64,000 nucleotides of DNA from Alloprevotella sp. oral taxon 473 str. F0040 (GTDB lineage: Bacteria > Bacteroidota > Bacteroidia > Bacteroidales > Bacteroidaceae): NCBI RefSeq assembly GCF_000318095.2, contig NZ_KB290714.1, positions 1 to 64,000 on the forward strand. The letters are read 5' to 3'. Made by a program: the position numbers and the translations under genes. The first letter of the stretch is position 1. Each line of letters starts with the position of its first letter. The notes beneath the pieces were generated by a model that was not told the origin of the DNA, did not search any database, and saw only the letters and a program-made list of their open reading frames with translations. Shown piece after piece: positions 2,427-63,942 of this stretch.

Positions 2427-3431
2427 CTAAGACTGTTCTTTTGAGGCCGCTTGCAGTTCAGATAAAGACGAAGTAGAGGAGGCTTTGGCACGCTTTTCTG
2501 CTTCTAGCAAGTCGCGGCGCGACTTGGAGAGTGTCACAAGAGCTACTCCCGAAAAGATGAGTGCCACGGCCAAGGCGTGGGTGAGCGTGAAGACTGCAAG
2601 CCCAAGAATAATACTAACAATGACAGCTACAATGGGCTGCACATAGTTATACATACTTACCACAGTTGGTCGCAACACTTGTTGACCTCGAATCATCAAT
2701 ATATAAGCTAGGAAAGTTCCTCCGACGACGACATAAAGAATTTCGCCGAGCGTGACAGCAGAAAGAGTGCTCCATGGAGTTTGCCACACATGATATGCAG
2801 TAAATGGCCAAATGATACAGGTGGCCGAAAGGAACATCCACTTATTCACCGTGAAGATACTGTAGCGTTTAGCCAACCACCCGAACACAGTGAGGTAAAT
2901 GGTATATGATATCTGAGCCGCAAAACAGAGGAGATCCCCACGAATGTCGCCCATGCTCAAAGTGCCTACCGCAGCACTTCCAGAAGCAGCACGCACGCTC
3001 GACATCACCAGCAAGACTGCACCACAGCATCCCAAGGCTACACCCAGTGCTTTGCGCAATGTTATAGGTTCTTTAAGGATTATCGCCGAAAAAATAAGTG
3101 CTGAAATGGGCATGGTTGTGGTGACAATACCAGCATTGACAGGCGAAGTGAGGCTAAGCCCAATGGTGAAGCAACACTGATTGCCTACGAGTCCAAAAAC
3201 TGCAGCAAGGCACAAAAGAGCGATATGTTTTCGGGAAATTGATTCACGAGGTGCAAAGAGAGAGGAAATCCAAAAGAGTATAGCACCTCCCATGACTCGC
3301 AGTGAAACGAGCGTGATGCCATCAATGCCATGTTGCATGGCATCTTTGCCCAGTGGCGACATGAGCCCCCAACAGATTGCTGCACCTGCAAGGCTAAAAT
3401 GAGCTAGAAGAGGAATTCGATTAGTAGACAT
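2427..3431 (-). CDS. EamA/DMT-family inner-membrane transporter
   Basis: A 334-residue polytopic membrane protein with about ten predicted membrane segments arranged as two EamA repeats (roughly residues 10-140 and 165-305). The first repeat shows the typical start AGAAICWGLMSPLGKDA and a PITLRKALGVALGCCGAVLLV segment; the second ends LGLAVFTLTHALAVALIFSGVALV. Drug/metabolite transporters of this type export amino acids, nucleotides or other small metabolites; the substrate cannot be told from sequence. The C-terminal 30 residues are charged and cytoplasmic. It is the first gene of a probable DMT-DUF2141-barrel transcript. A short TTAGAC-type repeat tract lies just upstream. Confidence 0.88.
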   Translation of the reverse strand: MSTNRIPLLAHFSLAGAAICWGLMSPLGKDAMQHGIDGITLVSLRVMGGAILFWISSLFAPRESISRKHIALLCLAAVFGLVGNQCCFTIGLSLTSPVNAGIVTTTMPISALIFSAIILKEPITLRKALGVALGCCGAVLLVMSSVRAASGSAAVGTLSMGDIRGDLLCFAAQISYTIYLTVFGWLAKRYSIFTVNKWMFLSATCIIWPFTAYHVWQTPWSTLSAVTLGEILYVVVGGTFLAYILMIRGQQVLRPTVVSMYNYVQPIVAVIVSIILGLAVFTLTHALAVALIFSGVALVTLSKSRRDLLEAEKRAKASSTSSLSELQAASKEQS

Positions 3432-3435
3432 TGAA

Positions 3436-3468
3436 TGTTAGAGAGTAGACATTAGACATTAGAGAATC
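3436..3468. repeat. short TTAGACATTAGA-type repeat tract
   Basis: Four to five tandem copies of a TTAGAnAGTAGACATTAGA-like octamer unit directly upstream of the DMT transporter gene. It is the same family as the larger arrays at 8.4, 49.7, 57.4 and 59.1 kb, but short and in one orientation only. Confidence 0.6.
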
Positions 3469-3616
3469 GATAATCATGGCTGTAGATCAAACCTCTTCTC
3501 TACTTATGCTCAAGATTTGTCTTAGCATTCGCACTATGACAGAGAAACTAACAGAGCGATAAAAATACCACTACTTCTTTCGCCGACTATCTATAAATTA
3601 GGAGTCCGTGCGAAGC

Positions 3617-8399: not shown

Positions 8400-8592
8400 G
8401 AGACATTAGGGGGCACAGCCCCTATTTAGAGGTTAGGTATTAGACCTTAGTAATTAGAGGTTGGAGGTTAGACGTTAGAAATTAGACGTTAGCCTCTAGC
8501 ATATAGGACGTAAAGATGCAAGATTCTAGAGATTAGACGTCAGACGTTAGAGGTTAGAGCCTACCAGCAGCCCATAACGTCTAACGTCTTCC
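8400..8592. repeat. fold-back TTAGACGTTAGA repeat array between leuS and yitT-like gene
   Basis: About a dozen degenerate copies of a TTAGAnnTTAGA unit run forward from 8400 to 8560; at 8575-8592 the unit appears inverted (AACGTCTAACGTCT). A small GGGGCACAGCCCC palindrome lies near 8411-8424. The transcript of this stretch could fold into a long imperfect stem. No reading frame explains it. Confidence 0.75.
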
Positions 8593-14893: not shown

Positions 14894-15102
14894 GCCAAAA
14901 GAGAGAAAATCCGCGTTAAATGATGTCAAACCGCTCCATTTTTCTGCATTTTTACTCGAAAGTCGGATGCTACAGCGCACACAGTCTTCGAACAGACCTC
15001 TCTGACTTTTCTCAAATCAGTGGAAAAACTGGCCTTCCCCTGCTTCCATGCCCTTCTCTTCTACAAGCCATGATTCCAGTGTCTCATGGAGTATGTTTCT
15101 CA

Positions 15103-15383
15103 CGCGTGCGCGTCGCACGCGCCTTCCCTGGGATTTTGACTTTTTCTCTTTCACAACCTTCACAAAAGTCGACAACAACTTATCTTGTTCCCCTTCCGCA
15201 AGTCACTCATACGTGATGTGACTTGCGGAAGGCAAAAGCAGCATTTTTCGATACAAAACTCACCATTCTGTTAAAAATTGTCCGAAAAACACGTGTTATT
15301 CTCTGTAATACAACTCATTACAGACAAATCGGTGAAGGTTGTGAAAGCAAAAACATCAACTTTGCTGTACGTACGCGCGCGAG
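15103..15383. repeat. inverted-repeat element with CG-rich tips (copy 1)
   Basis: The left arm has CGCGTGCGCGTCGCACGCGC (15103-15122) and then CTTTCACAACCTTCAC (15148-15163). The right arm has the exact complement GTGAAGGTTGTGAAAG (15332-15347), an A-rich spacer and GTACGTACGCGCGCGAG (15367-15383). Between the arms lie 168 nt that include a perfect 15-bp hairpin and a 7-bp hairpin (15303-15323). No reading frame spans it. A second element with the same arms but a different interior is at 54751-55134, which suggests a small mobile or RNA-encoding element. Confidence 0.75.
15192..15232. ncRNA. perfect 15-bp stem-loop inside the inverted-repeat element
   Basis: CCTTCCGCAAGTCAC at 15192-15206 pairs perfectly with 15218-15232 around an 11-nt loop. 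There is no T tract on either side, so it is not a standard terminator. Whether it is transcribed is unknown; it could be an RNA structure, a protein-binding cruciform or a recombination site. I list it as a candidate only. Confidence 0.35.
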
Positions 15384-15561: not shown

Positions 15562-15670
15562 GTCGCAGATTTTGGTGCAAAAAGTCCGAGTTTCTCTCAA
15601 ATATCTCCGAGATTTTCTGAAAAAACTCGGAGATATTTTCGTAAAAATCCGACAAAACTTTGCCAAAACT
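15562..15670. repeat. 21-nt degenerate repeat tract (copy 2)
   Basis: Four to five units related to ATCTCCGAGATTTTCTGAAA with a spacing of about 21 nt; some units appear as the complement (CTCGGAGATATTTTC), so the tract can also fold. Related tracts lie at 231-310, 34475-34588 (inside a gene) and 54986-55030. Confidence 0.7.
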
Positions 15671-34228: not shown

Positions 34229-35041
34229 CTAGAAATAATTGACAACATAGTGCTGGCGTTGAAGTTTGGGATAGCAAAAGGCTACTCCGAAGCGGTGCAG
34301 GTCGAAAGACACCGTGGTATAGTCCAACTGCTGGAGCGACTGCCAAGCCGTGGTGCGCTCCTCATTGGCATGAGGCAGAAACAAGACAAAAACAGACTGG
34401 GGCGACAATGCCGAATGCGGGGCTTTAACATCCATGGGGGAAGGGGAGATTTCGGCCGATGCAACACAAGTAGCGGAGTTATGCTCAGCACTCTCCGAGA
34501 TAAGCAAAGAAATGTCCGACATTTTCTCAAAACTCTCGGACTTTTTTGGAAATATCTCCGAGTTTTTTTCTAAACTCTCCGAGATTTTCGGACACAAGTG
34601 GGAGAAATGTGCTTGACTTGGGCTTGCAGCTGCCATCCACAGCACGAAGTCGAAGCGATACTGCGCCAGTAGGCCTTGCTTAAAAGCCTGATCCACCGCC
34701 GCCTCATCGGCGAAATGAACTATCGTGGCAGAAGGGCGCGCGGCTTTGAGGTAATGGATTTCTCGCTCCACCCTTTCTCCTACAACTAAGATGCAAGTGG
34801 CCTTAATGTGATTAGCCATGCGGAAGAGCAAACGAGCATCTTTCACGGAGAGAACTCCTGGCCACACCTCATGATGCTTGGATAGGTGGGCATAGGCATA
34901 GTATTGCGCCTTCTGATTGTACACCACGTCGGTGATCCACTCAAAAGCAAAGGGCGAATGCACACCGTAGCCTCGGCGTTGACGAAAACGACGAAACCAC
35001 CGCAAGATGCGAGGAATCAGGCAATAGGAAGGCAACATCAT
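34229..35041 (-). CDS. degenerate SAM-methyltransferase-like protein carrying a repeat-derived insert
   Basis: A 270-residue protein. The N-terminus (RFRQRRGYGVHSPFAFEWITDVVY) matches a Bacteroidetes family annotated as class I SAM-dependent methyltransferases, but the SAM-binding glycine-rich loop is replaced by ILVVGERVEREIH, so activity is doubtful. Between the strand DFVLWMAAASP (about 131-141) and VFVLFLPHANEE (about 217-228) lies an extra segment of about 65 residues. Residues 152-189 of it are heptads such as KISESLE, KNSEIFP and KKSESFE. These are the translation of the same 21-nt repeat found in intergenic DNA at 231, 15562 and 54986. The repeat seems to have entered the gene in frame. 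The gene lies downstream of a terminator that follows the transglutaminase gene. Confidence 0.6.
   Translation of the reverse strand: MMLPSYCLIPRILRWFRRFRQRRGYGVHSPFAFEWITDVVYNQKAQYYAYAHLSKHHEVWPGVLSVKDARLLFRMANHIKATCILVVGERVEREIHYLKAARPSATIVHFADEAAVDQAFKQGLLAQYRFDFVLWMAAASPSQAHFSHLCPKISESLEKNSEIFPKKSESFEKMSDISLLISESAEHNSATCVASAEISPSPMDVKAPHSALSPQSVFVLFLPHANEERTTAWQSLQQLDYTTVSFDLHRFGVAFCYPKLQRQHYVVNYF
34475..34588. repeat. 21-nt degenerate repeat tract inside a coding sequence (copy 3)
   Basis: About five units of the CTCCGAGATTTTC / CTCGGACTTTTTTGG type lie inside the methyltransferase-like gene. The 21-nt period equals seven codons, so the frame is kept and a heptad peptide is produced. 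Confidence 0.75.
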
Positions 35042-45775: not shown

Positions 45776-47737
45776 TTAGTTAGCAGGTGACACTTTCTGC
45801 ACTACGGCACGCCCCTTTGCAGTAATGCGTATGAGGAGGGAGGACTGTCCACGAGGAATACGGAAGGAGCAAGAAGTCTGTTTTATCACAGTCTGTTGCA
45901 ACTCGCGTCCTTCGAGGGATATCACCTCTACTTTAGCACCTTCTGGAGCAGCAACGTGGAGAATGTCACCTTCCCAACCACAAGAATAGTTGAAGGAGGT
46001 TGCGGTAGACACTCCTGCAACTCCACTCTTAATGGGAGCATCTTGCAAGATTTTCACATGCTCCACGACTTTGCGGTCGGACTGAGGGAGATAGAAGTGA
46101 CAGTCCAACACGGCATTGCGTGGTTTATCCTCTTCATTGGGTTCAACAATCAGTTGAATCTTTGTCTTTCCCTGACCTTGCCACAAAGTACTACTGAACC
46201 ACATTGCAGATGTTTGGAGAGAAAACTCTGCAGGTGCATCAATCGTGAGTACGACGATAGTGTCTTTTGCAGAAACATGGATGTCATTGGGAGAAATCCT
46301 CCATTTTTCTTCAACCTTAGGTGGATTAACTGGCTCTACTGGTTTAGGATTGGGCTTAATGGGATCCACCGGTTTGGGGTCAGGCTTCGTGGGCTCAACT
46401 GGCTTGGGGTCAGGCTTCGCGGGCTCCACTGGCTTGGGATCGGGCTTGACAGGATCTACCGGCTTAGGCTCAGGTTTGACGGGATCCACTGGCTTGGGAT
46501 CGGGCTTGACGGGATTAACTGGCTTGGGATCGGGCTTGACGGGATCTACTGGCTTGGGATCGGGCTTGACAGGATCTACCGGTTTGGGGTCAGGCTTAGG
46601 CTCGGGTTGATCAGAGGAAAGCTCTGTGCCTTGTTGAACCACGGTGTAGTTAACAAAGGTAGATTCGTCATCGCCAATGAGTTCAAAACGAAGATGTCCC
46701 ACTCGCGATTCCTTCTGCGGATTGTCTGCGACCGAGAGTCTAAAAGTTTTACTGTTGTATCCCGACTTCAAATCGGTAGTGAGCCATGCAGCATCACTGG
46801 TCACCAAATAGGTAGCCGTGGTGGTCATCTTCACTTCTAGGGTTTGTGCGCGATGATCGGGACGCCACTCTGCAGGAGCAAAACTGATTTGTGTGTTGCC
46901 TTCGCTAAACTGAGCAACGATAGGCATACGCTCGCGCAGCATGCGCACATTATCTTCCGTGGCAGAGCCCAAAACTACACCTTTCCACACACTTTTAGGC
47001 CCAGAGAAAATAGGTACTTGTCCTCCCACATGATCATGTGGTCCAGCCATCACCGTGCGATATTCGGGACGACTCGCCCCGACTGCATACTCATGCTTGC
47101 CTGCATCCACCTGTTGTCGCGAGTGCTGACAACCGATGTTGTGCGCGGCTTCGTGCGCCGCCGTATAATTGACTGCTGCCATAGAAGCACGTACGGAGGA
47201 GAAACCAGCATCTATACTCTTTGCCTCCTGAGTCGCCAATCCCGAAGCTCCATCGTTGACGGGTTCGGAAAGCAAAACCACAAGGTCGGCTTTTGCAGCA
47301 TCTCGCTGACGGCGTACTTCGGCATGGGCAGAAACCAATCCCAAACCTTGGTTGATGCTCTGCGCTTTTTCGGCAATCTCCATGTAGCCTGCCAAACGAA
47401 AACGCCCTTCTACATGAGAATTGCGCAACACAGCATTGATAGATTCTACCACCTCTTGGGCATATTTAGCCATACCTCCTCGTTGCGTTGCTACAGCTTT
47501 GCCCGAAGGATCATAGACCACAAAATAATCGATAATGGGCACACTGGTCTGAGCTTGGGTAGAAGCAGTGCGCCACGAAGAAGGTAGCGAATGATAAAAA
47601 GAGGTAGCATGCACCTTTTCCACTGCACCAATGGTAGGACTTAGGATTAAAGTACAAAGAAGGAATAGGAAACTCAATTTCTGTTTCACCACCGCATAAG
47701 AATGGTGTTTAGAAAAGAAAGATTGCAGACTTTTCAT
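45776..47737 (-). CDS. secreted metzincin-type metalloprotease with BACON-like domains and Pro/Lys/Asp repeat linker
   Basis: A 653-residue exported protein, using ATG 47737 (MKSLQSFFSKHHSYAVV); in-frame ATGs 9 and 12 nt upstream are also possible. After the signal peptide, a reprolysin-like protease domain carries HEAAHNIGCQH at residues 195-205, the HExxHxxGxxH zinc motif. A BACON-type beta domain follows (LVTSDAAWLTTDLKSG ... LRFELIGDDESTFVNYTVVQQG), then about nine copies of the ten-residue DPKPVDPVKP-like unit, then a second BACON-like domain (WRISPNDIHVSAKDTIVVL) and a C-terminal beta domain resembling a T9SS sorting domain (VEVISLEGRELQQTV ... KGRAVVQKV). It is probably displayed on the cell surface or released. 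It follows a Crp/Fnr gene by 66 nt on the same strand. Confidence 0.85.
   Translation of the reverse strand: MKSLQSFFSKHHSYAVVKQKLSFLFLLCTLILSPTIGAVEKVHATSFYHSLPSSWRTASTQAQTSVPIIDYFVVYDPSGKAVATQRGGMAKYAQEVVESINAVLRNSHVEGRFRLAGYMEIAEKAQSINQGLGLVSAHAEVRRQRDAAKADLVVLLSEPVNDGASGLATQEAKSIDAGFSSVRASMAAVNYTAAHEAAHNIGCQHSRQQVDAGKHEYAVGASRPEYRTVMAGPHDHVGGQVPIFSGPKSVWKGVVLGSATEDNVRMLRERMPIVAQFSEGNTQISFAPAEWRPDHRAQTLEVKMTTTATYLVTSDAAWLTTDLKSGYNSKTFRLSVADNPQKESRVGHLRFELIGDDESTFVNYTVVQQGTELSSDQPEPKPDPKPVDPVKPDPKPVDPVKPDPKPVNPVKPDPKPVDPVKPEPKPVDPVKPDPKPVEPAKPDPKPVEPTKPDPKPVDPIKPNPKPVEPVNPPKVEEKWRISPNDIHVSAKDTIVVLTIDAPAEFSLQTSAMWFSSTLWQGQGKTKIQLIVEPNEEDKPRNAVLDCHFYLPQSDRKVVEHVKILQDAPIKSGVAGVSTATSFNYSCGWEGDILHVAAPEGAKVEVISLEGRELQQTVIKQTSCSFRIPRGQSSLLIRITAKGRAVVQKVSPAN
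46330..46610 (-). repeat. 30-bp in-frame tandem repeat encoding the DPKPVDPVKP linker
   Basis: About nine to ten near-identical 30-bp units, varying mainly at the third residue pair (VDPV, VNPV, VEPA, VEPT, VDPI). Adjacent units are nearly identical at the DNA level, so copy number may change by slippage or recombination. Confidence 0.88.
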
Positions 47738-47803
47738 GTCAATCATCATAGGTCATATTTTACCGAAAAGAGAAGGAGTGATGGACTATAAACCTCAAAT
47801 TGG

Positions 47804-49687: not shown

Positions 49688-49705
49688 TGTCAAAATAGTT
49701 TGAGA

Positions 49706-49868
49706 ATAGACGTTAGAAGTTAGACGTTAGAAATTAGAGGGTAGAAATTAGAAGTCCTTGAGATTTTCTAGTTCTTCTAGAGTATCTAGTTCTTCTCGTT
49801 TGCTAGAATATCTAGTCCAATAGCGTTAGCCCTCTAACGTCTAACATCTAATGTCTAACCTCTAATTC
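49706..49868. repeat. fold-back TTAGACGTTAGA repeat array between mtnN and luxS
   Basis: Forward copies (TAGACGTTAGAAGTTAGACG and variants) fill 49706-49752; inverted copies (CTAACGTCTAACATCTAATG and variants) fill 49828-49868. A TCTAGTTCTTCTAG-like spacer with short direct repeats lies between. The whole can fold into a long imperfect stem. Confidence 0.8.
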
Positions 49869-54526: not shown

Positions 54527-54632
54527 ATATGCATTGATTGTAATGCAACCTACCAGTCGCTTCTTACTACTCTTATCAATCTTTCTAAGAACTCTATCTG
54601 AAGAGTATAGCTAAAAGCCTCTTACATGTTAC

Positions 54633-54673
54633 AGGTATTCATTCGTAATTATCGATGAATACCTGCTTTTTTG
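54633..54673 (+). terminator. terminator of the LRR lipoprotein gene
   Basis: CAGGTATTCAT (54633-54643) pairs perfectly with ATGAATACCTG (54656-54666), followed by CTTTTTT. Confidence 0.92.
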
Positions 54674-54750
54674 ACAACATCGCGACACAGATCTGGTTGA
54701 GCTCAAGAGAAGAAAAAACTACAAGTTAAAAAGAATAAATCAAGATTTCT

Positions 54751-55134
54751 CGCGCACGCGTACGCGCGCGCACCCTGCAATTTACACTTTTTGCTTTCAC
54801 AACCTTCACCATTTTCCGCTTAACATTATCTATTACAGCAATATACAGCATATTTATAACATCTTTTTTGAGAATTACTCAGAAACCGTGGAAAGGGAAG
54901 CAAAAATATAGATTATTCAATCAGAAAAATAGAATTATCGTACACTAAACTTGGAGCAAATTCTAGAATTCTCTGAGCGCAGTATAAAAAAGTCGAAGAT
55001 TTCTCATAAAATCTCCGACTTTTTCTTCGTATAACTCCTTGATTCTTATATAGAAATAGAATAGAGAAACAAACATCCTGTGAAGGTTGTGAAAGCAAAA
55101 AGTGCAAATTTCCTGACATGCGCGCGCGTACGCG
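54751..55134. repeat. inverted-repeat element with CG-rich tips (copy 2)
   Basis: The left tip CGCGCACGCGTACGCGCGCG (54751-54770) is followed by an arm at 54786-54809 that contains GCTTTCACAACCTTCAC. A perfect 24-bp complement lies at 55080-55103 (GTGAAGGTTGTGAAAG...), followed by GCAAATT and the right tip GCGCGCGCGTACGCG (55120-55134). The similarity of the arms continues imperfectly into the tips. The 270-nt interior is AT-rich, differs from that of copy 1 and carries a 21-nt repeat tract. No reading frame spans it. Confidence 0.8.
54986..55030. repeat. 21-nt degenerate repeat tract (copy 4)
   Basis: AAAGTCGAAGATTTCTCATA followed by AAATCTCCGACTTTTTCTTC: two units facing each other, so the tract can fold as a hairpin. 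It is related to the tracts at 231, 15562 and 34475. Confidence 0.6.
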
Positions 55135-55366
55135 AGGGTTATCACAATTTTCTACTGACCCTCTTCTGGCAAATAGAAAATCAGCAAGCCACTATAAACA
55201 CAATGCCTCGAATCACAAAGCCTCGTGAGAGGAGAATATAAGATATAAAGAGTTCTGGTTTCTAAGAAAGGTTATCACTGCTAGAAAATGACAACTGGAA
55301 ATGGCAAAAAAAGGATTCTTCAAAAATTATCTTCACTTTTTCGTCGTTTTTTCACTCTTTGCCTCT

Positions 55367-55393
55367 ATTTCAACCCCTATTATATGTAGGGGG
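55367..55393 (-). repeat. CCCCTA/TAGGGG hairpin motif (copy 2)
   Basis: ATTTCAACCCCTATTATATG followed by TAGGGGG. CCCCTA and TAGGGG can pair around a 7-nt loop. The motif is the inverse of the one at 14866-14893, and both lie about 235 nt outside an inverted-repeat element. Confidence 0.5.
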
Positions 55394-55691
55394 ATCGTTG
55401 AAAGAACAAGAAGGAAAAGAGGAAAAGAGCTTCACACCAAATAATAGAAAAAACTTCGAGGATTGTTGCGATTAAATCTTTGAAGTATGCTAAATATAAC
55501 TCGTTGAAGTAGCCAATATGGCACAAAAAAATGGGATACCACTGTACCCCAACCTTGTTAACCTTAAATCTAATACTATGAAAAACACATTGCAAAGATA
55601 CCATTTTCTTCGCAACTCTGCAAGAGTTTTACCTAATTATTTTATGAAACAATCCGTTTTTCGTTCATTATTGGGTATTATAGCTTCAAAT

Positions 55692-55728
55692 AAAAGAAAA
55701 ATCGCACAATTAAATTGAGCGATTTTTC
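55692..55728 (-). terminator. terminator of the nucleoside kinase gene
   Basis: AAAATCGC (55698-55705) pairs with GCGATTTT (55719-55726), with CAATT/AATTG inside. On the minus strand the stem is followed by TTTTCTTTTA. It lies about 30 nt after the stop codon. Confidence 0.78.
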
Positions 55729-57417: not shown

Positions 57418-57645
57418 TAGAAGTTAGGGGTCACAGACCCTTTTTGCTCGGCTTCGGCTTTACTTGCCTCGACCATTTAGAGATTAGACGTTAGAGATTA
57501 GGGCTTAAGACGTTAGAAAACTATGCGATCTGATGCTTCTAGACGATTATACCCCATGCGGTCTATGGATAGAAATAAACGTTAGAAAGTAGTGTCTGTC
57601 GTCTGAAATTTAGGGACAGATGCTACTTCCTAACGTCTATAAAAT
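57418..57645. repeat. TTAGACGTTAGA repeat array upstream of the nucleoside kinase
   Basis: Forward units at 57418-57520 (including TTAGGGGTCACAGACCC, then TTTTTGCTCGGCTTCGGC), more units at 57580-57590, and one inverted unit CCTAACGTCTATAAA at 57630-57645. The GCTCGGCTT module recurs in the 59.1-kb array. Confidence 0.72.
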
Positions 57646-57650
57646 TAAGA

Positions 57651-59057
57651 TTACTCTTCTCCCTTAAAGAGAGGATCCCATGCGGGAAGGAGTGTGGGCT
57701 TTTGCTCGAGGAGCTTGAGGGTGGCCGCTGGCACATACTTCTTTTGCACCACAAGGCGGAAGGTGTATTCGTCGAACCATTTATCGGTCATCACCAAGTG
57801 GCCTGCTACACCATTGGTGGGGCCCCAAGAGTTTTCGACCTTCCACTTCAAAGGCTTACCCTCTTTGTCCAAATCTACGGCGCAAAGTGTCATGGCATGG
57901 CTAGAGGCAGAAGCAAAAGTCTGGATACGCTCAGCCTTGTTCATGGGGAAGGTGGTGTTGAAGAGGTTCTCGTAGTCAAAGTTGTCCATCGAGAGGAGGC
58001 CTGTCTTGCGGTCGTAGAACTTGCCTACATCGCAAGAGTAGTACATGCGCGTGCTGTCCTTAATGCTAGCAATGGCCATTTGTTTGATTTCCTCCATAGG
58101 AAGATTGAGGAACGTCCAGTTGTGACCATCGTAGGTGTGGCGGTCAAGATCAATGGTAAAGGTCTTATAATAAGGGCGTGAGGGATCGTTCATGAGCATC
58201 ACGTAGTCGCTCACCAAGTTGAAGCCCACATAGCGGCGATAGAACTCTTGCGGAGTGTAGGTTTCAGTGCTGAGGGGCTTTCCTTTGGTATCACGCAGAG
58301 TGTAGGTGAACTGCATGGGAGGTTCGCCCAAACAAGCCACAAGGATGCGGTAAATAGTAGCCAGTTGTTCAGTCTTGCGTGCTTCAAGTTTCTTGCCACG
58401 TTCGCCAGCTGCATAGGCTTTGCGAAGAGCAAGACCATATTCGCGAAGCTTGAGGGCAATCACCTTTGCCATAGCACTGGTGTTGTTGGCATTGTAGCTC
58501 TCGGGCATCACTTCAGCAGGCACGACACCATATTTGCTAATGACGTCTTGCACACCGGTGAAGGTACCACCGTCGCTGATGGGATTGCGAAACAACCACT
58601 CTACGGTGAGATCACTCATGGGCTTATTGGCCTTGTCAATGACAGACTGAAGGAAGAGATTTGCCTTTTCGAGTTGGTCGTAGAAAGAATTGTAGCTTTG
58701 TGAAAACTCGAAACGTCCCAACTTTTGCTCACGAATCATGTGTGAGCGCATCACGTTGAGTCCAGTGAAGAGCCAGCAACGACCGCTGGATTGCTGGTCG
58801 GTGATTCCCTTAGAGGGAGCTTCGTTGGAGAAATAGGTATCGTTGGCTTGCGCTACATTGGGACGTACGGAAAGTGCTGCTACACCCGAGGTCATGAGTG
58901 CGTTTTGCAGAGCTTTGCTCGTAGCGTTGTTGGGCACGCTCTTGCGGAAGTTGCTGAGCATGTCGGGAGTGATGGCACCGCTTTGTGCAAAGTTGGGGAG
59001 CACAGCAGCTGAGAAGCAAAGTGCAAGAGCTGCACGAGTGAGAAAATGATGTAACAT
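57651..59057 (-). CDS. exported C1-family (PepC/bleomycin-hydrolase-like) cysteine peptidase
   Basis: A 468-residue papain-fold peptidase of the C1B type. Active-site Cys94 lies in DQQSSGRCWLFTGLNVMR, the His in ASSHAMTLCAVDLDKEGKP and the Asn in KVENSWGPTNGVAGH. Bleomycin-hydrolase-like aminopeptidases are usually cytoplasmic hexamers, but this one begins with a signal peptide (MLHHFLTRAALALCFSAAV, then LPNFAQ), so it acts in the periplasm or beyond. That is common in Bacteroidetes and fits a peptide-using lifestyle. TTAGAC-type repeat arrays flank it on both sides, which makes co-transcription with the neighbours unlikely. Confidence 0.93.
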   Translation of the reverse strand: MLHHFLTRAALALCFSAAVLPNFAQSGAITPDMLSNFRKSVPNNATSKALQNALMTSGVAALSVRPNVAQANDTYFSNEAPSKGITDQQSSGRCWLFTGLNVMRSHMIREQKLGRFEFSQSYNSFYDQLEKANLFLQSVIDKANKPMSDLTVEWLFRNPISDGGTFTGVQDVISKYGVVPAEVMPESYNANNTSAMAKVIALKLREYGLALRKAYAAGERGKKLEARKTEQLATIYRILVACLGEPPMQFTYTLRDTKGKPLSTETYTPQEFYRRYVGFNLVSDYVMLMNDPSRPYYKTFTIDLDRHTYDGHNWTFLNLPMEEIKQMAIASIKDSTRMYYSCDVGKFYDRKTGLLSMDNFDYENLFNTTFPMNKAERIQTFASASSHAMTLCAVDLDKEGKPLKWKVENSWGPTNGVAGHLVMTDKWFDEYTFRLVVQKKYVPAATLKLLEQKPTLLPAWDPLFKGEE

Positions 59058-59064
59058 ATATTTT

Positions 59065-59236
59065 TTAGATGTTAGAAGATAGACGTTAGAGGGCTTCGCA
59101 GTTGGACGTATCTTAGACGCTTTTAGACGTTAGATGTTAGGGCTGTACCTTTTTTGCTCGGCTTGCTAGCTTCGAGCTTTTTAGACGTTAGAATCTGTGA
59201 CCCTCTAATGTCTAATGTCTAACGTCTAATATCTAA
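59065..59236. repeat. fold-back TTAGACGTTAGA repeat array between the peptidase and epimerase genes
   Basis: Forward units (TTAGATGTTAGAAGATAGAC and others) run from 59065 to about 59190, interrupted by TTTTTTGCTCGGCTTGCTAG; inverted units (CCTCTAATGTCTAATGTCTA and on) fill 59201-59236. This is the clearest fold-back array of the family in the window. Confidence 0.8.
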
Positions 59237-59237
59237 T

Positions 59238-60287
59238 CTATATCCACCCTTCGGCTTTATACCAAGCCACTGCTTCGGGGACTCCACGATATAATGGCCA
59301 TTGAGGAGAAAAACCTAAATCTTGTTGGGCGGGGGTAATATCGCAGATCCAGTTGCGTTGGCGCAAGAGTTGGAACTTGTCCATGTTGAGCGTTGACATC
59401 TTGCCAGTGCATTTGGAAATCCAGGTACTCACTTGGCATACTGCATGGAGAAACCACACTGGAGCTTTGATATGCGCCACCCATTTCACCCCCATCTCTT
59501 GTTGCAACAAATCACTAAAGGCGCGACTATCGTAGACTTCTCCATCACTGAGGAAGTAGCTACGACCGCGCTCTCCGCGATGAAGGGCAAGGAAACAGGC
59601 ATCGACCAAGTCGCGAACATAAATGAAGGTAAGGGCTTGTGGAGTGTACCCCACCGCGAAATCTATGTGCTTCTTGATACTATCGGCCATGAGGAAATAA
59701 TCTCGCTCACGAGGGCCATAGACTCCTGTGGGACGGAGGGTGACATAGTCCAAACCTTCGAGGGTGGCAAGGGCGCGCTCTGCATCAAGTTTGGAGCGGC
59801 CATAGGCGGTGTTGGGCTGGGGAGTATCGGCATCGGTGATAGCACGATAGCGTTCTAGCCCTTGGGCTATACTGCCATCTGGCTGGCGAACTGGATTTTC
59901 CGCCACAGCTCCTACGACAGAGAGCGAGGAGACAAAGACAAAACGTCCTTTGAGCAACTGCAACTCGAGTAGCGTACGCGCCAAACGAACTGTTCCTTCG
60001 GTGTTGGTGCGACGGAAAGCGGCTTCGTTGGGAGCTTTGGTGGCACCTGCTGCATGAATCACGTAGTCGAAAGCTCCGTGTTCAGCAGCATGAGTGCGGA
60101 GTTGCTGCGCAAGCACAGCATCATCGCCCAAATCAAGCTCGATGAAATGGATGCGCGGATCAGTGAGATACTCCTTGCTGCTCGTTTTGCGGAGCACTGC
60201 CCATGTGTCGAAACCTAATTCGAGTGCTTTTTCAACGAGGAAAGATCCTACAAAGCCCGAGGCTCCAGTGATAAGAATTTTAGACAT
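59238..60287 (-). CDS. NAD-dependent epimerase/dehydratase family protein
   Basis: A 349-residue extended short-chain dehydrogenase, using ATG 60287 (MSKILITGASGFVGSFL); a longer frame to 60416 would lie over the probable promoter. The NAD(P)-binding GASGFVG motif is at residues 8-14, catalytic YGRSK lies in NTAYGRSKLDAERAL, and SSLSVVG carries the catalytic Ser region. The rest (TLRPTGVYGPRERDYFLMADSIKK) is typical of nucleotide-sugar epimerases or dihydroflavonol-reductase-like enzymes. The substrate is unknown. No other sugar-nucleotide gene is close. Downstream lies a fold-back repeat array; upstream is tRNA-Pro on the same strand, behind its own terminator. Confidence 0.88.
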   Translation of the reverse strand: MSKILITGASGFVGSFLVEKALELGFDTWAVLRKTSSKEYLTDPRIHFIELDLGDDAVLAQQLRTHAAEHGAFDYVIHAAGATKAPNEAAFRRTNTEGTVRLARTLLELQLLKGRFVFVSSLSVVGAVAENPVRQPDGSIAQGLERYRAITDADTPQPNTAYGRSKLDAERALATLEGLDYVTLRPTGVYGPRERDYFLMADSIKKHIDFAVGYTPQALTFIYVRDLVDACFLALHRGERGRSYFLSDGEVYDSRAFSDLLQQEMGVKWVAHIKAPVWFLHAVCQVSTWISKCTGKMSTLNMDKFQLLRQRNWICDITPAQQDLGFSPQWPLYRGVPEAVAWYKAEGWI

Positions 60288-63725: not shown

Positions 63726-63942
63726 GCATTCAAACCAAATCTATTAGATGTTTATCTCTAGGGAAAAGGATATAGATGCGTAATTCCTACCCTTGCAGTG
63801 CCTCTCGACACTTCAATCCTCCTTATTAGGCTAACGTCTAATTTCTTATGTTCAATGCTTATTCTGCGTTATTTATCGTTACTCTCTTTCGATTCCCCGC
63901 AGAAGTTCGTATTTTCGCTAAAATGTTTAGCTGTTGCAGCTT

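Follow-up and report, generated by a model that had tools for sequence, protein, structure and literature searches.

The window analyzed here, a stretch of 64,000 nucleotides, contains an inverted-repeat element at positions 54751-55134. The segment at 54786-54809 (ACTTTTTGCTTTCACAACCTTCAC) is the exact reverse complement of that at 55080-55103 (GTGAAGGTTGTGAAAGCAAAAAGT), 24 bp with 0 mismatches, and the repeat search of the window extended the inverted arm to 47 nt at 83% identity. Each arm holds a core, GTGAAGGTTGTGAAAG, on the minus strand at 54794-54809 in the left arm (direct reading, 174-arm profile and ortholog comparison) and on the plus strand at 55080-55095 in the right arm (direct reading and arm profile). 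The cores are adjoined by an A-tract block, CAAAAA, at 54788-54793 on the minus strand (arm profile) and at 55096-55101 on the plus strand (direct reading and arm profile). The element is capped by a left tip, CGCGCACGCGTACGCGCGCGCAC at 54751-54773, which is GC-rich, alternates between purines and pyrimidines and is prone to form Z-DNA (direct reading and arm profile), and by a right tip, GCGCGCGCGTACGCG at 55120-55134, which is an alternating CG tract (direct reading and tip-alternation test). With a core-to-core distance of 286 bp, the gene-less interior at 54810-55079 (reading and ORF list) belongs to the class of long elements, and it contains sequence related to TCGGA-type repeats of about 21 bp. 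No ORF of at least 80 aa was found within 54527-55709, the region spanning the element, and the Rfam search identified 0 families inside it. The perfect arms, the alternating CG tips and the absence of a gene that were originally predicted from the sequence were thus confirmed by reading, ORF and Rfam checks.

A second copy is located at 15.1 kb, with tips of a similar kind at 15102-15122 and 15370-15381, a left core at 15148-15163 on the minus strand and a right core at 15332-15347 on the plus strand, all by direct reading. Its interior, at 15164-15331, is different, and the core-to-core distance of 184 bp places it in the modal class of distances. On the plus strand at 15269-15288 the interior carries the motif TGTTAAAAATTGTCCGAAAA, which the motif survey showed to lie at a constant position, about 47 bp inward from the right core. 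In total, the 16-bp core occurs in 4 exact copies in the window and in 7 copies when up to 3 mismatches are allowed, compared to 0.69 expected.

Several other features were observed in the window. The small RNA FopS (Rfam RF04319, 73 bits) is encoded on the minus strand at 55522-55588, about 390 bp to the right of the 54.8-kb element, at a site that is a synteny breakpoint relative to the sister species; similar copies are located elsewhere in the congeners. The window repeat search identified short intergenic arrays of a TAGACGTTAGA-type repeat with a unit of about 14 bp that recur throughout the window, at 3425-3476, 8427-8557, 49693-49758, 57471-57508, 59052-59242 and 63828-63851. A 21-bp TCTCCGAgattttc-type repeat, in which CTCCGA/TCGGAG units are conserved, forms arrays at 15570-15657 and 34479-34608, and the same unit fills the interiors of many long elements. 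Finally, about eight tandem 30-bp repeats (63-78% identity) at 46293-46622 lie inside an ORF of 657 aa at 45776-47749 that matches a reprolysin-like metallopeptidase and BACON domains.

A family of paired arms in four related species

Genome-wide statistics were obtained from pattern searches and retrieved stretches of the window's own assembly (G000; 2.55 Mb in 24 contigs). We identified 84 exact copies of GTGAAGGTTGTGAAAG, as against 0 for the reversed control, and about 46 elements in total; another 43 are present in the sister species G033 (LT608321.1, "Prevotellaceae bacterium Marseille-P2826"), which we take to be Marseilla massiliensis. The suggestion that arms and tips are common to the two copies in the window while the interiors differ was thereby borne out for a whole family. 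The arms are always paired and of a single polarity, CTTTCACAACCTTCAC ... GTGAAGGTTGTGAAAG, with the opposite order never seen; two seeming singletons have damaged partners, due to a 1-bp deletion (L044) or a decayed right arm (L058). Unpaired arms scattered through the genome, which would have argued against the original prediction, were not found. Runs of 20 N were observed in or beside the arms at eight G000 loci (L009, L013, L029, L037, L038, L040, L043 and L050), which indicates that the assembler broke at these repeats and that element counts from short-read assemblies may be too low.

The distribution of the family is narrow. A search for GTGAARGCAAAA-N(8-38)-CGCGCG, which combines the shared outer half-site with the CG tract, recovered dozens of arms in four of 58 congeners (G000, G033, G063 and G064) and 0 in the remaining 54, while the reversed control gave two stray matches, neither in the four carrier species. 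Another 392 genomes sampled across the order gave 0 matches to a narrower pattern, which excludes close forms only. In an 84,980-species collection, from which the nearest relatives are perhaps absent, no further record contained the exact pair with 152-182 bp separating the cores. Likewise, the exact core pair was not recovered from IMG/VR and similarity searches in phages and plasmids gave no match, although records very near G000 may be absent from these sources; a pattern of arm plus CG tract matched 32 stretches among the 2.9 million IMG/VR contigs, each with one unpaired match. Searches of the literature by sequence, species and architecture yielded no earlier description in open-access papers, in line with the initial statement that no element with these ends was known, and the family looks like a previously undescribed one.

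Conserved cores and helical geometry

The alignment of 174 arms revealed a common layout from the inside to the outside, consisting of the core, the CAAAAA tract, a weaker GTGCAAAAT(T/C)(C/G)C(T/A)G block and the CG tract. The 16-bp core is almost invariant and is composed of two half-sites arranged as a direct repeat, GTGAAGG-TT-GTGAAAG. Purine-pyrimidine alternation in the tips reaches 0.94-0.99 (166 arms) between positions +40 and +48, counted from the core start, compared to a background of about 0.42; over a fixed 20-bp tip window it is 0.87, as against 0.51 in shuffled sequences. The hairpin potential of the tips is barely above what alternation alone predicts (5.55 vs. 5.16 pairs); the CG tract is thus not simply palindromic, and it is the alternation that is conserved. 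Elsewhere, alternating GC-rich runs of at least 13 bp are rare, with 7 in 790 kb of the G033 sequence, at least one of which is inside an element.

Short elements, defined by a core-to-core distance of less than 240 bp, are asymmetric: 47 of 54 contain exactly one inner motif (TGTTAAAATATGTCCGAAA or GAACACCGTTCCTAATACCC), positioned 46-48 bp inside one core, whereas 7 contain none and 0 contain two. In long elements, the inner sequences are different or two motifs are present, and repeats of about 21 bp are found in many of them. The interiors of the short elements are mostly non-homologous to one another, the long elements have repeats and arm-proximal sequence in common, and in G033 just three pairs of interiors are similar over most of their length.

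At least 36 of the 46 elements in G000 are located at sites common to G033. In 32 ortholog pairs, the cores differ at 6 of 1024 positions (0.6%), as compared to 38% in the 40 bp inside the core and about 20% in the block outside the A-tract; the comparison was ungapped and the latter figures include misalignment caused by small indels, but the contrast to the core is still very large. The cores are therefore either constrained site by site or homogenized together; they are probably under purifying selection. The flanks of the 54.8-kb element and of another element at 76 kb are rearrangement breakpoints in G033, and no clean empty site could be read there.

The distances between the cores are also constrained. 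They cluster at about 171, 181-184 (the modal class), 193-195, 203-205, 228, 266, 287, 308, 330, 352 bp and longer, in steps of about 11 and 21 bp, or roughly one helical turn per step, with element lengths of about 110-670 bp overall. Of 33 ortholog pairs, 22 have kept their distance to within 2 bp, while about 11 have changed in length by more than 2 bp, not always by whole helical turns. Several ortholog interiors are 72-95% identical without gaps, whereas their 285-bp flanks often contain 10-25 gaps, and in other interiors several indels cancel out. Furthermore, inside the arms the A/T content varies in phase with the core at a period of 10.4-11.6 bp. This phase-locking exceeds that in all of 1000-2000 row-shifted controls in both species and for both arm types, even in stretches of the interior with almost no sequence conservation. 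Bacterial DNA has a general 11-bp signal (PMC4132750), which the row-shifted control retains, so that only the phasing to the core is removed. At gyrase sites, phased A/T has been read as a sign of DNA wrapping (PMC6379681). Because the interior has kept its length and its helical phase, it resembles a spacer rather than cargo. Hence, the idea of a cassette with variable cargo holds only in part, insofar as the interiors differ.

At a site located by way of a flanking gene, G063 and G064 contain elements with the same architecture and a changed core, GTGAAGG-CA-GTGAAGGCAAAA and variants thereof. This gene is also the one convincing match to a G000 or G033 site among the flanking genes sampled for their elements, which suggests that most element positions differ between the two sub-clades. 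An identity of sites in all relatives, which the original prediction regarded as evidence against mobility, was thus largely seen in the sister species but apparently not in these more distant ones, and the movement of elements is slow at most. Three elements in G064 (L189, L205 and L209) represent a more elaborate version, each holding between four and six internal GTGAARGCAAA sites that are placed almost identically from one element to the next; in two of these, L189 and L205, six internal positions are identical while the sequence has drifted. Some neighboring elements are mutual inverted copies (L081/L082 and L096/L097 in G033, and two in contig C7 of G063 at 85.9 and 101.8 kb), as are L062 and L064 in G000, with one element between them. 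The DNA between L081 and L082 in G033 is inverted relative to that between L062 and L063 in G000, with the breakpoints at the elements. These patterns suggest that copies were spread or rearranged by recombination between neighbors.

Spacing along the chromosome and a possible organizing role

The elements are intergenic and occur between genes of every relative orientation, with no orientation preference of the flanking genes. In G033, the minimum interval in the region from 0.96 to 2.05 Mb is 11.5 kb, whereas uniform random placement, which was not confined to intergenic DNA, gave a mean minimum of 0.8 kb. The corresponding minimum is 11.0 kb in contig C14 of G000 and, among the sites listed, 5.9 and 10.1 kb in G063 and G064, respectively. 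The elements are thus over-dispersed in the four genomes and never nearer to each other than about 6-11 kb. They are also unevenly distributed, with 37 of the 43 elements in G033 confined to a single arc of 1.09 Mb (40%) of the 2.76-Mb chromosome. The skew in this genome places the origin at about 1.7 Mb and the terminus at about 0.28 Mb, yet dnaA is located at 1.08 Mb and parB at 2.07 Mb, and because of this discordance we go no further than calling the distribution uneven.

We propose, with a confidence that is about evenly balanced and on the basis of these sequence patterns, that each copy is a cis-acting nucleoprotein element, most likely for chromosome organization. A putative sequence-specific protein would occupy the two arms on the same helical face, and the intervening phased DNA would be wrapped or looped. 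Short elements, with the inner motif in one arm, are asymmetric, which could give the complex a direction, and the alternating tips would probably flip to Z-DNA under negative supercoiling, thereby buffering or delimiting the topology. Most likely, the elements would act as nodes scattered along the chromosome, by which domains of about 10-30 kb are anchored, insulated or supercoiled, with new copies probably arising by rare inverted duplication between neighboring elements.

An organizing role is suggested by the constrained cores, the conserved core-to-core distances with their increments of about 11 and 21 bp, the phased A/T, the alternating tips and the over-dispersion, as well as by the indifference to the orientation of the flanking genes and the identical internal site positions in the diverged G064 elements. 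Moreover, the different cores of the two sub-clades would be explained if the core co-evolves with its putative protein. Other observations count against it. About a third of the ortholog pairs have changed in length, the apparently largely different positions in the two sub-clades imply turnover, the restriction to four of 58 congeners means that such chromosomes have no general need for the elements, and large parts of the G033 chromosome are without any. Helical phasing is also expected of short transposons with synapsing ends.

The topological domains of bacterial chromosomes measure roughly 10 kb each, but sequence elements dedicated to setting them at regular intervals are not known to us. 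We are somewhat less confident, rating the full scheme slightly below an even chance, that the family constitutes a clade-specific architecture system in which a putative protein and about 45 dispersed, wrapped or looped particles of fixed helical geometry with supercoil-sensitive tips would define topological domains, with a recognition sequence that changes in concert between sub-clades at dozens of sites. The anatomy of the elements, with two-arm recognition, helical length, phased A/T, tips and a minimum spacing, makes the idea of domain setting directly testable, and a sister species that carries the family has been isolated and sequenced.

Alternative explanations and comparison with known systems

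The main rival explanation, to which we assign a distinctly lower but still appreciable probability, is a non-autonomous mobile family similar to REPINs or MITEs, moved in trans by a transposase or another recombinase, possibly with target immunity. The cores and tips would then be the ends and the interior a filler, the length of which matters for end synapsis. Such a family, also put forward in the original prediction, accounts for inverted ends around a variable, gene-less interior in tens of copies, for the at least 10 sites that, in our comparison, are not common to the two sister species and for the apparently different sites of most elements in the two sub-clades; target immunity would fit the over-dispersion, and asymmetric ends are known from elements of the Mu and Tn7 type. 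However, target-site duplications were not seen, with no excess over shuffled pairs at lengths of 4-9 bp in 78 elements, although old insertions could have lost them. A search for Y1_Tnp (PF01797), the RAYT-type transposase, gave 0 matches in both G000 and G033, whereas the control genomes gave matches. All cores found lie in short gene-less pairs, so that no autonomous copy was seen among the paired arms. In addition, the short interiors are mostly unrelated, and the cores at old shared sites have not decayed while their distances were kept; a merely selfish element needs neither. If the elements are nevertheless mobile, selection for intact ends, spacing and helical geometry in copies at old sites would be unexpected as well. 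The two explanations are compatible if a mobile family was domesticated.

We also considered the possibility that the elements are loading sites for gyrase or another topoisomerase, resembling strong gyrase sites or BIME-2, in which the core would recruit or position the enzyme and the phased interior would be wrapped by it. The E. coli gyrase motif is marked by phased A/T with a period near 10.75 bp (PMC6379681), a value within the 10.3-11.6 bp observed for the elements, and the alternating tips and wide spacing would fit with supercoil control. Yet this motif is 130 bp and degenerate, whereas the elements combine a 16-bp core that is invariant with interiors reaching 668 bp, and gyrase is essential and general while the elements are limited to four species, which makes this explanation unlikely.

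Even less likely is a regulatory or RNA element, such as a promoter, a terminator, a small-RNA gene or a hairpin formed by the two arms. The inner motif, fixed in position in a single arm of most short elements, might serve as a promoter, and FopS adjoins the element in the window. However, no Rfam family was found inside the elements, FopS as a companion RNA is absent at the 18 other element loci checked, and the flanking genes have no preferred orientation. The RNA pair or cruciform that had been predicted is rejected, because the 16-bp cores would pair but beyond them the arms within an element are less alike, and thus less complementary, than the arms of different elements, which indicates that no hairpin is selected; nor is the variation in the core compensatory. 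An invertible switch, in which site-specific recombination inverts the interior, would fit the inverted repeats around a directional interior but is very improbable, since all alignable ortholog interiors have the same orientation relative to their flanks, with identity in the inverted orientation at the level of chance. We also rejected a Noc-like second ParB, as the four carrier species have one ParB_N gene each, like most congeners.

Similar to the REPIN/RAYT system and BIMEs, the elements consist of two inverted conserved repeats with a variable spacer, located in intergenic DNA in tens of copies and with long vertical persistence (PMC8049555). A link of REPs to gyrase binding and to the folding of the nucleoid has also been described (PMC8049555). 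Unlike REPINs and BIMEs, the elements described here have neither a Y1 transposase nor a hairpin within the element, and they have a longer spacer in helical length classes, alternating CG tips and an over-dispersed arrangement at intervals of at least 6-11 kb. Strong gyrase sites (Mu SGS, pSC101) likewise have phased A/T, which there promotes wrapping (PMC6379681), but the invariant paired 16-bp cores, the length of 110-670 bp and the restriction to a single clade set the family apart. Bacteroidales MITEs in Porphyromonas gingivalis (BrickBuilt, MITE239 and MITE464/PgRS) are gene-less with inverted ends, occur in about 10-20 copies per genome and contain internal tandem repeats of 23 or 41 nt (PMC4596501), reminiscent of the repeats of about 21 bp in our long elements. 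BrickBuilt has ends similar to those of resident IS elements, and target-site duplications flank some of its copies (PMC4596501). In contrast, the elements here lack such duplications, have mostly non-homologous short interiors and, unlike MITEs, are not homologous along their whole length.

The family thus fails the defining tests of REPINs, MITEs and invertible switches. The sites of matS/MatP, SlmA, Noc and parS/ParB are tens of short, invariant, intergenic protein-binding sites with an uneven distribution. The elements share these properties, with putative binding in our case, but the known sites are single short palindromes, whereas here the unit is a pair of directional sites at a constrained helical distance with alternating tips. 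By analogy, we suggest that the family works most like REP/BIME sequences or dispersed organizing sites.
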